From Duganella sp. (GTDB taxonomy: Bacteria > Pseudomonadota > Gammaproteobacteria > Burkholderiales > Burkholderiaceae_D), in NCBI GenBank assembly GCA_026225475.1, contig JAMFSU010000143.1, positions 1 through 64,000 on the forward strand: DNA of 64,000 bases. The letters are read 5' to 3'. The translations under genes were made by a program, and so were the position numbers. Positions 6,535 to 44,509 of the stretch are shown one piece after another. Numbering within the stretch: the stretch's first letter is position 1; every line of letters begins with the position of its first letter. Below the pieces are notes generated by a model. The model had not been told where the DNA came from, did not search any database, and was given only the letters and a program-made list of their open reading frames with translations.

Positions 6535-7332
6535 TCATACGCACTTGAGGCTCAAGCCGCCATCGACGATGAGATCGACGCCGGTCACATAACGCGCTGC
6601 ATCCGAGGCCAGAAACAAGGCGGCATGCGCCACATCCCAGGCATCACCCATATGCCCCATGGGACACTGGGCATCGCGTTGGCGGCGCATATCGTCGACA
6701 TTGCCGCCATACGCGGCCTTGAGCGGCTCGCGGATCATCGGCGTGTCCATCAGGCCGGGCAAGACGCAATTGGCGCGAATGCCAAGTGGCGCATATTGCA
6801 TGGCGATATTCTTGGTCAGCGCCAGTATTGCCGCCTTGGATGCCGTATAGGCGGCATAGGGAAAGCCTACCCAGCGCAGGGCGGCCAGCGAGGAGATGTT
6901 CACAATGGCCCCCTTCCGCTGTTTTTCCATCACCGGCAGGACGTATTTGCAGGTCAGGAAGATGCTGGTTTGATTGACCGCAATGACACGATGCCAACTT
7001 TCTTCATCGGCTTCGACCGGTCCACCGACTTCAGCGATACCGACATTGTTGTGCAAGACATCGATGCGGCCGAAATGGTCGAGTGCGGCAGCAACCATGG
7101 CCTGGATGTCGACTTTGTTGACCACATCGGCGGCCAGTACCTGGCACTGTCCGCCCTCACTGAGGATCACGTCCCTGGTCGCTTGCGCGGCTTGCAGATT
7201 GCGATCGACCGCCAGCACCCGCGCACCTTCACGGGCATACAACACCGCTGCCGCCTTGCCATTGCCCCAGCCCTCGCCGACCGATCCGGCACCGCTGACG
7301 ATGACTACCTTGTCTTCCATTGCTCGTGCCAT
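6535..7332 (-). CDS. Short-chain dehydrogenase/reductase (SDR family)
   Basis: This cytosolic NAD(P)-dependent oxidoreductase has 265 residues from ATG 7332, chosen because ACGGAG lies 7 nt upstream and translation then begins just after the stop of the upstream SDR (13-bp gap). An alternative ATG is at 7320. The Rossmann glycine motif GAGSVGEGWGNGKA is near residue 12 and carries extra glycines, a pattern seen in some glucose/sorbitol-type SDRs. NNVG, Ser of ISSLAAL, and YTASK give the catalytic Asn-Ser-Tyr-Lys set. The protein ends with the VDGGLSLKCV tail. It is the last gene of the TRAP-SDR operon and probably oxidises a hydroxyl group of the imported substrate. Confidence 0.9.
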   Translation of the reverse strand: MARAMEDKVVIVSGAGSVGEGWGNGKAAAVLYAREGARVLAVDRNLQAAQATRDVILSEGGQCQVLAADVVNKVDIQAMVAAALDHFGRIDVLHNNVGIAEVGGPVEADEESWHRVIAVNQTSIFLTCKYVLPVMEKQRKGAIVNISSLAALRWVGFPYAAYTASKAAILALTKNIAMQYAPLGIRANCVLPGLMDTPMIREPLKAAYGGNVDDMRRQRDAQCPMGHMGDAWDVAHAALFLASDAARYVTGVDLIVDGGLSLKCV

Positions 7333-7345
7333 GCGCTCGCTCCGT

Positions 7346-8116
7346 TCAAATGTTGAGTACACCGGCGGCCACGAAACCACCGTCGACCGGCATCGTATGA
7401 CCGTTGATGTAAGACGCGTCGTCACTGGCCAGAAACGCCACCGCAGCGGCGATTTCATCGGTAGTGCCATAACGTCGCATTGGTACGCCATCGGTAAAGC
7501 TCTTGCGCGTCTCGGCCGAATGCACGGCCTGCGTCAACGGCGTATCGACCGGCCCCGGCGCCACGCTGTTGACGGTAATGCCATGCTCGGCCAGCTCGAT
7601 TGCCATTTGCCGCGTCAAGCCGATCACGGCCGCCTTGGAGGTACCATAGGCGGTGCGTCCAGTGCCGGCGCGCAAACCCGACACCGAGGAGATATTGATG
7701 ATGCGTCCCCATTTCTTGCGTACCATCATGCGTGCTGCATGCTGACCACACAGCATCACACCGCAGACGTTGATATTCATCGTCAGCAGCCAGTTGTCGA
7801 GCGGAAAATCGAGAAATGGAAAGGTCTTGGCAACGCCAGCATTGCTGACCAGTACATCGCAACGGCCGTAATCCTTTTCGACATCGGAAAACGCTTGCGC
7901 AATCGACTCGGGCTTGCTCACATCCATGACCAGCGCTGCCGCCTTGCCGTGACCGTCATTGATCTTGTCGACCGTGGCTTGCGCTGCCGCCAGATTGATG
8001 TCCGACACCAGCACGGTATAACCGTCGTGCGCCAGCCGTTGCGAAATTGCAGCGCCAATGCCCATGGCTCCGCCCGTCACGAGCGCCACGCGGGCGCCGC
8101 TATCGATTTGGTTCAT
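7346..8116 (-). CDS. Short-chain dehydrogenase, 3-hydroxyacyl/acetoin-reductase-like
   Basis: This 256-residue SDR starts at ATG 8116, with GGAGA 5 nt upstream; in-frame upstream codons lack such a site. Visible features are the cofactor motif TGGAMGIGAAI, the Asp of VSDIN (suggesting NAD preference), NAGVA, the catalytic Ser in ISSVSG, and YGTSK. The C-terminus is HTMPVDGGFVAAG. It resembles FabG-like and acetoin/butanediol dehydrogenases. It lies 68 bp after the TRAP permease gene and 13 bp before a second SDR, so three proteins of one route (uptake and two dehydrogenation steps) appear co-transcribed from the sigma-54-like promoter at 11.2 kb. Confidence 0.9.
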   Translation of the reverse strand: MNQIDSGARVALVTGGAMGIGAAISQRLAHDGYTVLVSDINLAAAQATVDKINDGHGKAAALVMDVSKPESIAQAFSDVEKDYGRCDVLVSNAGVAKTFPFLDFPLDNWLLTMNINVCGVMLCGQHAARMMVRKKWGRIINISSVSGLRAGTGRTAYGTSKAAVIGLTRQMAIELAEHGITVNSVAPGPVDTPLTQAVHSAETRKSFTDGVPMRRYGTTDEIAAAVAFLASDDASYINGHTMPVDGGFVAAGVLNI

Positions 8117-26100: not shown

Positions 26101-27012
26101 TCAGGCCTTACGTTGCACAATCAGATCGGCCAGGTCGCGCAAACGCCGCGCCTTGTCTCCAAAAATCTGCAGCGCCAGTTGGGCATCATTGCGCAGCTTT
26201 TCAGCCAGCACCTGCGATTCGGCCAGGCCAAGTATCGAGACATAGGTCGGCTTGTTGTGTGCCGCATCCTTGCCAGCGGTCTTGCCCAACGTGGCGGAAT
26301 CAGCCGTGGCGTCGAGGATGTCGTCAACCACCTGGAATGCCAGGCCAATTGCCTCTGCATACGCGTGCAAGGCGTTGGTTTCATCGATCGACAACTGCTT
26401 GCCGGCCGAGGCCCCAAGCAGGACTGAGGCGCGCAGCAAAGCACCTGTCTTGAGCCGATGCATCTGTTCCAGCTCCGCCAGCGACAGCGTCATGCCGACA
26501 CTGGCCAGATCGATTGCCTGACCGCCACACATACCGACCGATCCGGCCGCCTGCGCCAGCAAATTGATCATCGTCATCTGCCGTGCCGTGTGCTGCGCAT
26601 CGTCGACCGTCGACAATACCGCAAAAGCCTGTGCCTGCAAGGCATCGCCTACCAACAGCGCGGTCGCTTCATCATAGCGCACATGCACAGTCGGCTTGCC
26701 TCGACGCAAGTCATCGTCATCCATGCAGGGCATGTCATCATGCACCAGCGAATAGACGTGAATCATTTCCACCGCAGCCGCAGCACGCGCCAACAATTGC
26801 CGTGGCGCATCGAATAATTCGCCGGCGGCATAGACCAACAATGGCCGCACTCGCTTGCCACCTTCCATGGCGGTATAGCGCATGGCGTCATGCAAGCGCG
26901 CCGGCATCTGGCTGGCCGCTGGCAGATAGACAGCGAGCATATCTTCCATGCCGCCCTGAATTTGTTGCACCCAACCAAGGAATGGCGCGACAGTGTTGTT
27001 ACTCAGGTTCAT
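26101..27012 (-). CDS. ispA: Farnesyl diphosphate synthase (polyprenyl synthetase)
   Basis: The 303-residue prenyltransferase condenses IPP with DMAPP and GPP to farnesyl diphosphate. The first Asp-rich motif is DDMPCMDDDDLRRGKPT and the second is DDILD in FQVVDDILDATAD; both bind Mg-diphosphate. GKRVRPLLVYAAGELF holds the IPP-binding Lys/Arg. The length is typical of short-chain (C15) synthases of the IspA type. The start codon shares one base with the xseB stop (TAATG), a tight coupling found throughout proteobacteria. Confidence 0.96.
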   Translation of the reverse strand: MNLSNNTVAPFLGWVQQIQGGMEDMLAVYLPAASQMPARLHDAMRYTAMEGGKRVRPLLVYAAGELFDAPRQLLARAAAAVEMIHVYSLVHDDMPCMDDDDLRRGKPTVHVRYDEATALLVGDALQAQAFAVLSTVDDAQHTARQMTMINLLAQAAGSVGMCGGQAIDLASVGMTLSLAELEQMHRLKTGALLRASVLLGASAGKQLSIDETNALHAYAEAIGLAFQVVDDILDATADSATLGKTAGKDAAHNKPTYVSILGLAESQVLAEKLRNDAQLALQIFGDKARRLRDLADLIVQRKA

Positions 27013-42361: not shown

Positions 42362-42790
42362 TTAGAGTTCGAGTGCTTTAGGTTGCTGAGCAGCGTGCGG
42401 ATGGTTGCCATCTGCATAAACCTTCAGCTTCTTGATCATCGCGTAGCCGAGCGGGCCCTTAGGCAACATGCCCTTGACCGCTTTTTCCAGCGCGCGACCT
42501 GGAAAACGCTGTTGCATTTTCAGGAAATTGGTTTCGTAGATGCCGCCTGGATAGCCGCTGTGACGGTAGTATGTCTTTTCAGTTGCTTTGGTACCAGTAA
42601 CACGCAGCTTACCTGCGTTGATCACGACGATGAAATCGCCCGTGTCGACGTGAGGAGTAAATTCCGGTTTGTGTTTGCCGCGCAGTCGGAGTGCCACTTC
42701 GCTGGCAACACGTCCGAGGACTTTGTCCGTCGCGTCAACCACGAACCAGTCGCGCTTTACCTCATGGGCTTTAGCGGAAAAGGTTTTCAT
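42362..42790 (-). CDS. rplM: 50S ribosomal protein L13
   Basis: The 142-residue uL13 protein has the expected length and sequence ([20 protein letters not shown], then [20 protein letters not shown], and [20 protein letters not shown]-like region with YADGNHPH). It heads the rplM-rpsI operon. A strong promoter lies about 170 bp upstream, giving a long 5' leader that could hold an autoregulatory L13-binding structure, as known for rplM in other bacteria. Confidence 0.98.
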
Positions 42791-42962: not shown

Positions 42963-42992
42963 ATTATAGCCTTTTCAAGCACTTAGGGTCAA
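42963..42992 (-). promoter_or_regulatory. Strong sigma-70 promoter of rplM-rpsI
   Basis: The -35 TTGACC (42992-42987) and a perfect -10 TATAAT (42968-42963) are 18 bp apart. Transcription should start near 42956, giving a leader of about 165 nt before rplM. The position and strength fit a ribosomal-protein promoter. Confidence 0.82.
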
Positions 42993-43078
42993 TCCCTTTG
43001 TTTTCCTGCGCGCCTGAATGTGGTATGGCGCCACTGCGCCCCTATGACCCAGAGCGCAGACATATAGAGCCAGCACGC

Positions 43079-43176
43079 AAAAAAAACCCGAAACGAGGGT
43101 TTCGGGTTTAAATCCACACCAAAGGAGGAGGGTGGAGGAGACTCGGTATAGTTAGCAACGAAATGCGCTAACCAGT
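43079..43176 (-). ncRNA. Candidate small RNA with two CUCCUCC anti-Shine-Dalgarno motifs
   Basis: About 98 nt on the minus strand between rplM and the OsmC gene. In order: a stem-loop with GUUAGC/GCUAAC arms (43172-43151, 10-nt loop), single-stranded CUCCUCC at 43140-43134 and again at 43130-43124, and an intrinsic terminator with a perfect 10-bp stem AACCCGAAAC/GUUUCGGGUU (43108-43085), loop CCUC, then eight U. A promoter with 17-bp spacing sits just upstream. No open reading frame lies on this strand in the interval. The design (stem-loops plus repeated CCUCC) resembles the anti-SD 'cuckoo'/alpha-r14-type sRNAs, which pair with ribosome binding sites. Its targets and regulator are unknown. 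Confidence 0.78.
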
Positions 43177-43182
43177 GAATTC

Positions 43183-43211
43183 AATATAGCAAATGGAATT
43201 GTGCGACGCAA
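43183..43211 (-). promoter_or_regulatory. Promoter of the candidate small RNA
   Basis: The -35 TTGCGT (43211-43206) and -10 TATATT (43188-43183) are exactly 17 bp apart. The predicted start is near 43176, four bases upstream of the first stem. The flanking sequence is AT-rich, unlike nearby coding DNA. Confidence 0.65.
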
Positions 43212-43395: not shown

Positions 43396-43845
43396 ATGGA
43401 ATGCACAGTACGCTGGACCGGACTTTCCGGCATGACATTTTTGGCTGAGACCGGTTCCGGTCACGTGGTCGCCATGGATGGTGCGCCCGACGGCGGTGGC
43501 CGCAATCTGGCGCCGCGTCCGATGGAGGTAGTGTTATTGGGTACCGGCGGCTGCACAGCGTACGACGTCGTGGTGATTTTGCGAAAAAGTGGCCAGGATA
43601 TCCGTGGCTGCGAAGTCACACTGAAGTCACAGCGCGCCGAGCAGGATCCGAAAGTGTTTACCAAAATTCACTTCCATTTCACGGTGCGCGGTCGCAACCT
43701 CAAGCAAAATGTGGTCGAACGCGCAATCAAGTTGTCGCATGACAAATATTGCTCAGCATCCATCATGCTGGAAAAGACTGCAGAAATCACACACTCGTTT
43801 GAAATCGTCGACGACCTTGCTGAGCTGCCACCAGCAGTTCAATAA
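43396..43845 (+). CDS. OsmC family protein (YhfA-like)
   Basis: The 149-residue protein has the OsmC/Ohr fold. Cys53 in GTGGCTAYDVV and Cys119 in DKYCSAS are the two conserved cysteines that reduce peroxides in this superfamily. The RPMEVVLLGTGGCT and IHFHFTVRGR segments place it with the YhfA group rather than Ohr. It is probably cytosolic and may act in thiol-peroxide defence, although many YhfA relatives have no proven activity. It is preceded by a long AT-rich region and converges on coq7. Confidence 0.9.
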   Translation: MECTVRWTGLSGMTFLAETGSGHVVAMDGAPDGGGRNLAPRPMEVVLLGTGGCTAYDVVVILRKSGQDIRGCEVTLKSQRAEQDPKVFTKIHFHFTVRGRNLKQNVVERAIKLSHDKYCSASIMLEKTAEITHSFEIVDDLAELPPAVQ

Positions 43846-43882: not shown

Positions 43883-44509
43883 TTAGATGCGGTAAGCCAC
43901 TGTCGTCATGACCTTGGACATGATTTTCATCAGCCCACGCACTGGCAATGGCGTCGCCGCAGCACCTAAGGCCTCGGCGGCTTCGGCGTGCTCGATTTCA
44001 TCCTTGCGCATCTGATCGACAATCTCACGCGATTTGGCATCCTGGGCCGGCAATTTTTCCAGATGACTGATCAGATGCTGCTCGACCTGACGCTCGGTTT
44101 CGGCCACGAAGCCGAGATTACGCGCATCACCGGCGCGCGCGGCGATGCTACCCAGCACGTAGGAGCCGACATACCACAACGGGTTGAGCAGGCTGGTGTG
44201 CGAACCAAGCTCGCGCAAACGCTCTGCGGTCCAGGCAAGATGATCCTCTTCCTCAATGCCAGCATGGGCAAATTGCTGCTTCAACTGTTGCGACTGTGTG
44301 AAGCGCGCCTGCGCATCGTACAAAGCCTGGGCGCACACTTCGCCGACATGGTTGATGCGCATCAAACCGGCGCTATGCCGTTTTTCGGCATTGCTCAATG
44401 CTGTTTCGGCCAGAACTGTGGCCGGATTTGGCCGCGATGACACCACCGCACCACCAACGACACGCAAGGCTTTGTCCAAATCGATAATCATTTGATCGGC
44501 GAATTGCAT
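43883..44509 (-). CDS. coq7: 2-polyprenyl-3-methyl-6-methoxy-1,4-benzoquinone monooxygenase (Coq7)
   Basis: The 208-residue di-iron hydroxylase performs the penultimate step of ubiquinone synthesis. Ferritin-like iron ligands are visible: Glu in NHVGEVCAQALY, Glu and His in EEEDHLAW, Glu in ETERQVEQHL, and Glu-x2-His in KDEIEHAEAA. Betaproteobacteria typically use Coq7 for this step. The gene lies 42 bp after the pyrC start region on the same strand, so co-transcription with pyrC upstream is not favoured; it begins with ATG 44509. Confidence 0.95.
   Translation of the reverse strand: MQFADQMIIDLDKALRVVGGAVVSSRPNPATVLAETALSNAEKRHSAGLMRINHVGEVCAQALYDAQARFTQSQQLKQQFAHAGIEEEDHLAWTAERLRELGSHTSLLNPLWYVGSYVLGSIAARAGDARNLGFVAETERQVEQHLISHLEKLPAQDAKSREIVDQMRKDEIEHAEAAEALGAAATPLPVRGLMKIMSKVMTTVAYRI

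Follow-up and report, generated by a model that had tools for sequence, protein, structure and literature searches.

Burkholderia cenocepacia carries four members of the RNA family RF02278, ncS03, ncS05, ncS27 and ncS62, and the family takes its name from the blocked growth of E. coli upon cloning (PMC4603805, PMC5688073, PMC10987360). According to the same three sources, NcS27 is 92 nt long and has a processing site that yields a shorter form. Its level rises 9.7-fold in biofilm, 4.3-fold in glucose medium and 3.9-fold in starvation; cells grow more slowly when it is overexpressed and faster when it is silenced. Because the increase in glucose medium is larger for ncS03 (8.0-fold) and ncS05 (6.9-fold), glucose induction does not single out the ncS27-type copy. 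Between 55 and 80% of the predicted interactions of the B. cenocepacia members lie around gene starts, and the drivers of these sRNAs' accumulation are called unknown in that species (PMC5688073).

S17 of Bordetella pertussis is Hfq-dependent, is cut by RNase E, near its C/U-rich site, to a 67-nt form and directly represses the mRNA of a sigma-54 activator; without S17, 92 genes go up, and its exposed sites have matches in 70 of them (77% of those identified) (PMC11722255). Four further RF02278 members, Hsnc059, Hsnc063, Hsnc086 and Hsnc107, are among the predicted and RNA-seq-profiled sRNAs of Herbaspirillum seropedicae, and none of the four is among the Northern blots reported in the accessible part of that paper, which describes the family as so far exclusively betaproteobacterial (PMC7011215). 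Expression, processing and repression through a ribosome-binding site (RBS) have been shown in print for relatives of the RNA described below.

A second body of work concerns the storage polymer PHB. In H. seropedicae, the PhbF motif TG[N]TGC[N]3GCAA lies within a DNase-footprinted region (PMC3206438), and PhaR acts in E. coli as a repressor of phaP1 and phaP2 fusions (PMC4873508). Strain SmR1 of this species is available with deletions of phaR and of phaC1. How riboregulation contributes to PHB synthesis in Cupriavidus necator is called undeciphered (PMC8401924). In S. meliloti, the sRNA MmgR, which carries an anti-Shine-Dalgarno (anti-SD) motif (PMC7143759), is repressed by AniA, a PhaR-type regulator (PMC8401924, PMC7143759), and PhaR-type wiring therefore has a precedent in another RNA. 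PhaR, PHB and phasins receive no mention in the accessible parts of the NcS27 papers (PMC5688073, PMC4603805), nor do PHB and PhaR in those of the S17 preprint (PMC11722255). Within the openly available literature, which set the scope of our search and leaves subscription papers and supplements outside it, we found no report linking RF02278 or NcS27 to PhaR/PhbF.

The locus studied here lies on the minus strand of a 64,000-nucleotide stretch of DNA, hereafter the window, with rplM on one side and an osmC-like gene on the other. Its features are:

42362–42790, minus strand: rplM (ribosomal protein L13; PF00572, 2.4e-44), downstream neighbour of the sRNA
42963–42992, minus strand: separate promoter-like site for rplM, TTGACC-18-TATAAT, with 11 of 12 consensus positions
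43078–43143, minus strand: RF02278 core comprising site 1, first hairpin and terminator (Rfam and our model R2), probably the processed form of the sRNA
43079–43176, minus strand: predicted primary transcript of ~98 nt, from the -10 box and the end of the T run; the 5' end at 43176 was set 7 nt after the -10 box and is positional rather than measured
43086–43079, minus strand: terminator U run, eight T (sequence)
43084–43109, minus strand: terminator stem-loop, stem of 10–11 bp, loop CCUC
43124–43130, minus strand: anti-SD site 2, CUCCUCC, placed largely in the first-hairpin loop by the predicted fold
43134–43140, minus strand: anti-SD site 1, CUCCUCC, mostly single-stranded (predicted fold)
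43149–43174, minus strand: 5' leader hairpin, possibly processed off (predicted fold; processing of NcS27 and S17)
43167–43172 and 43151–43156, minus strand: exact 6-bp inverted repeat GTTAGC/GCTAAC (sequence)
43183–43211, minus strand: sRNA promoter TTGCGT-17-TATATT (sequence)
43188–43183, minus strand: -10 box TATATT (sequence)
43211–43206, minus strand: -35 box TTGCGT (sequence)
43199–43211, minus strand: PhaR/PhbF-like operator TTGCGTCGCACAA, overlapping the -35 box (phasin-promoter matrix)
43396–43845, plus strand: osmC-like gene (PF02566, 2.7e-16), divergent neighbour of the sRNA
43883–44509, minus strand: coq7 (PF03232, 9.5e-42), next neighbour past osmC

The original prediction had described most of this anatomy from the letters alone, and its description holds. 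The promoter TTGCGT-N17-TATATT is located on the minus strand between rplM and osmC as proposed, the 6-bp stem-loop corresponds to the exact repeat, which the predicted RNA fold extends to a 9-bp stem, the two exact CUCCUCC motifs 10 nt apart start at 43140 and 43130, and the terminator has its CCUC loop, its eight U and a stem of 10–11 bp where 10 had been given. Its argument that nothing else on the minus strand needs this terminator also fits, with osmC on the plus strand and coq7 beyond osmC. A strict promoter scan of the window did not list the sRNA promoter, because TTGCGT agrees with TTGACA at only three positions; the promoter spacing and the -10 box are nevertheless conserved among orthologues. 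The strand from 43180 to 43079 (102 nt) folds at -33.1 kcal/mol (z = -5.98), and none of 200 shuffles was equally stable. Single CTCCTCC motifs are unremarkable in the window (6 against 3.55 expected, a number reached by 12 of 100 shuffles). The pair CTCCTCC-N3-CTCCTCC occurs once in the 64 kb and in none of 100 shuffles. Judged from its sequence, the locus is a real small-RNA gene.

The covariance-model search that had been proposed as a check identified the RNA as RF02278, Betaproteobacteria_toxic_sRNA, at 61.9 bits against a gathering cut-off of 50 and over the full model (positions 1–64), with no other Rfam hit passing gathering in the 64 kb. Fold and alignment display the family's architecture of two hairpins, the second being the terminator, with CU-rich unpaired sites. 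The candidate is thus not the undescribed RNA it had been taken for, since the family is already catalogued and studied, and the suggested likeness to 'cuckoo'-type sRNAs failed, the cuckoo/ar14 model (RF02344) reaching only 24.7 bits against its cut-off of 58.8. ErsA/Pseudomon-1 (RF01719; 25.5 bits against 50) and anti-hemB (RF02837; 23.9 against 49.5) were likewise rejected. The idea of an anti-SD sRNA aimed at GGAGG sites fared better, as pairing with RBSs has been predicted or demonstrated for the RF02278 members studied so far.

Eight RF02278 matches at E 1e-3 or better, three of them above the cut-off, are present in the window's own genome. Of 116 genomes of the same family, 107 have at least one match and 102 at least one that exceeds the cut-off, a single genome holding as many as 21; for 200 genomes drawn from the phylum, the corresponding counts are 14 and 6. 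Copies can lie close together. Two similar ones sit ~640 nt apart in the window's genome (G000:C138:6684-6745 and 7326-7387), and, among the matches listed, two genomes of one genus have four copies each within ~10–12 kb (G109:C42:193860-203865 and G005:C113:125971-138070). One genome, G097, has at least 21 matches. Phasins occur in 56 of 60 genomes, and all 56 also carry an RF02278 RNA, a co-occurrence confounded with genome size; the same confounding applies to three genomes of 2.0–2.5 Mb (G006, G041 and G049) that contain neither the RNA nor phasins. A further genome (G057) has no phasins, yet three RF02278 matches.

To follow the locus itself, we used as the orthologue set the best 80 osmC loci of a longer list, among which the nearest OsmC is that of Herbaspirillum lusitanum (97% identical), which makes the window Herbaspirillum-like. 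At 45 of these 80 loci the sRNA sits in the rplM-osmC gap, oriented as in the window, and these gaps measure 389–720 nt. The search for orthologues started from the motif TCTCCTCC, and the conservation of site 1, exact in all 46 rows (45 orthologues and the window), is therefore built in. Site 2 drifts (CTCCTCA, CCCTCCA, CTTCCCC, CACTCC), and two exact CTCCTCC motifs are kept in 27 of 46 rows. The expectation that the CUCCUCC repeats would be conserved in relatives was thus borne out for site 1, subject to the motif-based selection, and in part for site 2. A covariance model (R1) built from the 45 orthologues and the window found nothing at E 1 or better within the rplM-osmC gap of the 35 motif-less osmC loci; weak matches outside this gap appeared at L095 (E 0.039) and L077 (E 0.091). 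Both-sided changes were seen in 6 of 14 predicted pairs across the 46 rows, all six in the terminator stem, in counts that exclude alignment A3, in which two branches are out of register around site 1. The first hairpin is nearly invariant and therefore speaks neither for nor against its pairing. At four Caballeronia loci (L119, L133, L139 and L142) and at L129, the promoter abuts site 1 and leaves no space for a leader, consistent with the processed form as the functional one. Two Burkholderia loci, L118 and L135, adjoin rplM.

The family also extends beyond the window's order. RF02278 matched 83 of 274 genomes of the class at E 1e-3 or better; only 3 of the 83 were above the cut-off, all of the window's order. 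At the loci from other orders (L041–L067), rplM lies downstream on the same strand, at 95–416 nt, in 22 of 27 fetched, where the chance of such adjacency is ~7.5e-5 per genome (taking a genome size of 3 Mb). Eight of the 27 loci also contain coq7, and five contain osmC. Rfam annotation at gathering picked up none of 20 loci tested. We trained a second model, R2, on 24 of the 27 other-order loci alone (alignment A4, with both-sided changes in 8 of 11 pairs, all in the terminator), and it recovers the window locus at 43079–43139 on the minus strand with E 4.2e-9. At E 1e-4 or better, R2 finds the RNA in 109 of the 274 class genomes, all but three of which (106) lie outside the window's order, and 7 of 12 of its loci from non-training genomes adjoin rplM on the same strand. 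That a model from other orders finds the window locus indicates that the family is broader than its name. GTDB places Burkholderiales within Gammaproteobacteria, so that the other-order relatives are presumably gammaproteobacteria proper. Many of these relatives (L041–L067 and L237–L266, mostly beside rplM) have TTGACA-type promoters. One genome outside the order has three tandem copies at ~150-nt spacing (G378:C3:217943-218301), and one relative has two adjacent glycine-riboswitch matches near the RNA (L054:1188-1371).

Upon examination of the sRNA promoter, we noticed that its -35 box is overlapped by an element of the form TTGC-N3-GCACAA, which, exactly or in close variants, is fixed over the -35 box in most orthologues. 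Neither this element nor the linkage to rplM in distant relatives had been picked up by the original prediction. We scored it with a symmetrical matrix of 17 columns, made from 40 sites in 24 of 26 usable phasin (phaP) promoters; the 26 remained from 32 phasin loci after six whose start the script could not place were set aside, and two of the 26 lacked the core. Only sites with TGC-N3-GCA entered the training set, which contained no sRNA promoter. The window's operator reaches 17.8 bits, or 16.3 with the same genus's phasins omitted from the matrix; no other site in the 64 kb attains 14 bits. Over 375,368 background positions, the matrix found 34 sites of at least 8 bits, 4 of at least 12 and 0 of at least 16.

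With the full matrix, 39 of 45 orthologues have a site of at least 8 bits, against 2 of 34 osmC-upstream regions without the RNA (shuffles, 3.4%), and 25 of 45 against 0 of 34 have one of at least 12 bits (shuffles, 0.9%). Omitting the same genus's phasins leaves 34 of 45 against 2 of 34 at 8 bits, 25 of 45 against 0 of 34 at 12 bits and only 8 of 45 against 0 of 34 at 16 bits; the Fisher values of 1.6e-10 at 8 bits and 1.4e-8 at 12 bits ignore shared ancestry and overstate independence, because the compared species are related. The control regions come from 35 osmC loci without the RNA, one being too short to score, and were scored over 225 nt upstream of osmC, whereas the test set was scored over 150 nt upstream of site 1; as rplM is off the expected side in 9 of the 34, they are osmC-upstream regions and not strict rplM-osmC gaps.

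The window's genome contains a PhaR homologue and two phasin genes whose promoters both bear a site of the sRNA operator's type, one having TTGCGGCGCACAA plus a second site and the other TTGTGCACCGCACAA. The exact operator pattern matches this genome 21 times, compared with 5 in the reversed control; most matches are inside ORFs as called by script, one lies just before a phasin gene and one is the sRNA promoter. The sRNA promoter with its phasin-type operator looks like a member of the PhaR/PhbF regulon, in which case PhaR may control it. We consider it likely that the RNA is a trans-acting anti-SD sRNA of family RF02278, processed, placed under a PhaR/PhbF operator and de-repressed when PHB titrates PhaR.

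The main alternative keeps the same anti-SD sRNA and reads TTGC-N3-GCACAA as a promoter feature or as the site of another regulator, with the RNA answering general growth arrest. The element does overlap the -35 box, and as TTGC is a plausible start of a -35 hexamer, the promoter by itself accounts for some of the operator match, and only GCACAA is free of this. The core is present in 39 of 46 rows and absent in 7; in the 39, the best spacing to the -10 box is 17 in 35 rows, 16 in three and 18 in one. The sRNA sites also lack part of the left half seen in the best phasin sites, and NcS27 expression follows biofilm, starvation and stationary phase, and S17 is raised by BvgA (PMC11722255). Against this stand the match to a matrix learned from phasins, which reaches past the -35 hexamer, the empty background at 16 bits in 375 kb, and the distribution of the site among copies of the RNA. 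An operator of at least 12 bits is present at 13 of 14 loci of the rplM/osmC type but at 2 of 22 scored family copies elsewhere in the same group (4 of 22 at 8 bits or more; L002–L040 hold 25 copies without rplM/osmC neighbours, of which 22 were scored). Together these points make the non-PhaR reading possible but rather unlikely in our judgement. At the distant loci from other orders, the operator reaches 12 bits in only 3 of 25 scored (27 fetched); the operator therefore seems to have been added within the window's order.

The copies away from rplM share a different upstream element, approximately GATAT-N10-AATTGG, often before a TATACT-type -10 box (loci L010–L012, L017–L023, L027, L029, L035 and L037), which is probably the site of a different regulator.

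That the hairpins and terminator might form a leader or attenuator of the rplM operon, with the short RNA as its by-product, is suggested by their position upstream of rplM on the same strand, which the window shares with 22 of 27 distant loci (95–416 nt). The window, however, has the separate promoter-like site between terminator and rplM, a strict-consensus promoter is found in 7 of 21 gaps outside the order (none in the other 14), 7 of the 8 copies in the window's genome do not adjoin rplM, and relatives work in trans; we regard a cis element as very improbable. A toxin-like or selfish element, which the family's name and its multicopy occurrence might evoke, is scarcely credible given the stable rplM-osmC position across genera, the place beside rplM beyond the order, and an S17 that does not impair exponential growth of E. 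coli (PMC11722255).

What the favoured PhaR-controlled anti-SD sRNA would do can be laid out as a sequence of steps. In the absence of PHB, free PhaR on the -35 operator would keep the sRNA gene off. As PHB chains form, PhaR would be titrated and the sRNA made from its own sigma-70 promoter, after which 5' trimming would probably leave the double-hairpin form of ~65 nt. Its two exposed CU-rich sites, resembling the anti-SD tail of 16S rRNA, would pair with RBSs and block initiation, lowering the translation of a set of mRNAs; Hfq, shown to act with S17, would presumably take part. Targets in relatives include many transport and catabolic genes, and an sRNA made during carbon storage would thus lower uptake and catabolism. 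Gene anatomy, family membership, conservation, synteny and the operator match are results of this analysis, and expression in this organism, binding by PhaR, timing and local targets are what we infer from them. The loop CUCCUUU of the sRNA also resembles the 3' tail of 16S rRNA.

The pattern GGAGGAGA-N3-10-ATG has 13 matches in the window's own genome compared with 1 in the reversed control, and the ten ORFs scanned comprise three porins, two solute-binding proteins, four others and one without a family (L186 and two ORFs of 9 and 38 aa were left out of the scan). The control pattern AAAGGAGA has 15 matches compared with 2 in its reversed control; its seven scanned ORFs comprise two solute-binding proteins, one permease and four others or none, and eight were left out, three tiny or cut by a contig end and one the phasin itself among them. 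Transport functions are accordingly not enriched among the scanned genes (5 of 10 for GGAGGAGA against 3 of 7 for the AAAGGAGA control). Predicted pairing of the sRNA with the phasin mRNAs is unremarkable next to window gene starts called crudely by script. Among 52 such crudely called window genes, the third strongest predicted pairing is with the gene at 26104–27012, which has GGAGGAGGAG before its ATG and which we take to be polyprenyl-synthase-like.

Taken together, we lean towards an ancient rplM-linked mimic of the 16S tail, shared by the window's order with others of its class, that may have acquired PhaR control in Burkholderiales and would report carbon-storage status to translation initiation of uptake and catabolic genes, a betaproteobacterial counterpart of MmgR built on a seemingly unrelated RNA. 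If this is true, the PhaR operator offers a testable answer to what drives the accumulation of these sRNAs, the question raised in B. cenocepacia, and the sRNA becomes a concrete candidate for riboregulation tied to PHB. The rplM-linked relatives outside the order point to a family broader than the betaproteobacterial label, with a conserved home locus. Within the openly available literature, both the operator link and these relatives look new.

Among described systems, NcS27 of Burkholderia cenocepacia shares with the window sRNA the RF02278 core sequence, the two hairpins, the CU-rich unpaired sites, the terminator and a leader that can be processed off, and differs in species. The Hsnc RNAs belong to the same Rfam family in the closely related genus Herbaspirillum. 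S17 has the site 1 and site 2 region, the coq7 neighbour, the anti-RBS action and a sigma-A promoter with a TTGCAT -35 box and a 17-bp spacer in common with it, but lies between a glycosyltransferase gene and coq7, has a 190-nt primary transcript and answers to BvgA (PMC11722255). The cuckoo/ar14 family (RF02344), of which NfeR1 is a member (PMC7143759), has CUCCUCC-type anti-SD motifs in the loops of its model. MmgR (alpha-r8) combines an anti-SD motif, a PhaR-type repressor (AniA) and a tie to PHB, a likeness of wiring only, and differs in its alphaproteobacterial family, its induction by NtrC and its effect on phasin levels. In kind, the window sRNA is an ordinary member of RF02278; what it adds to these systems is a regulatory link that can be tested and a broader ancestry tied to rplM.
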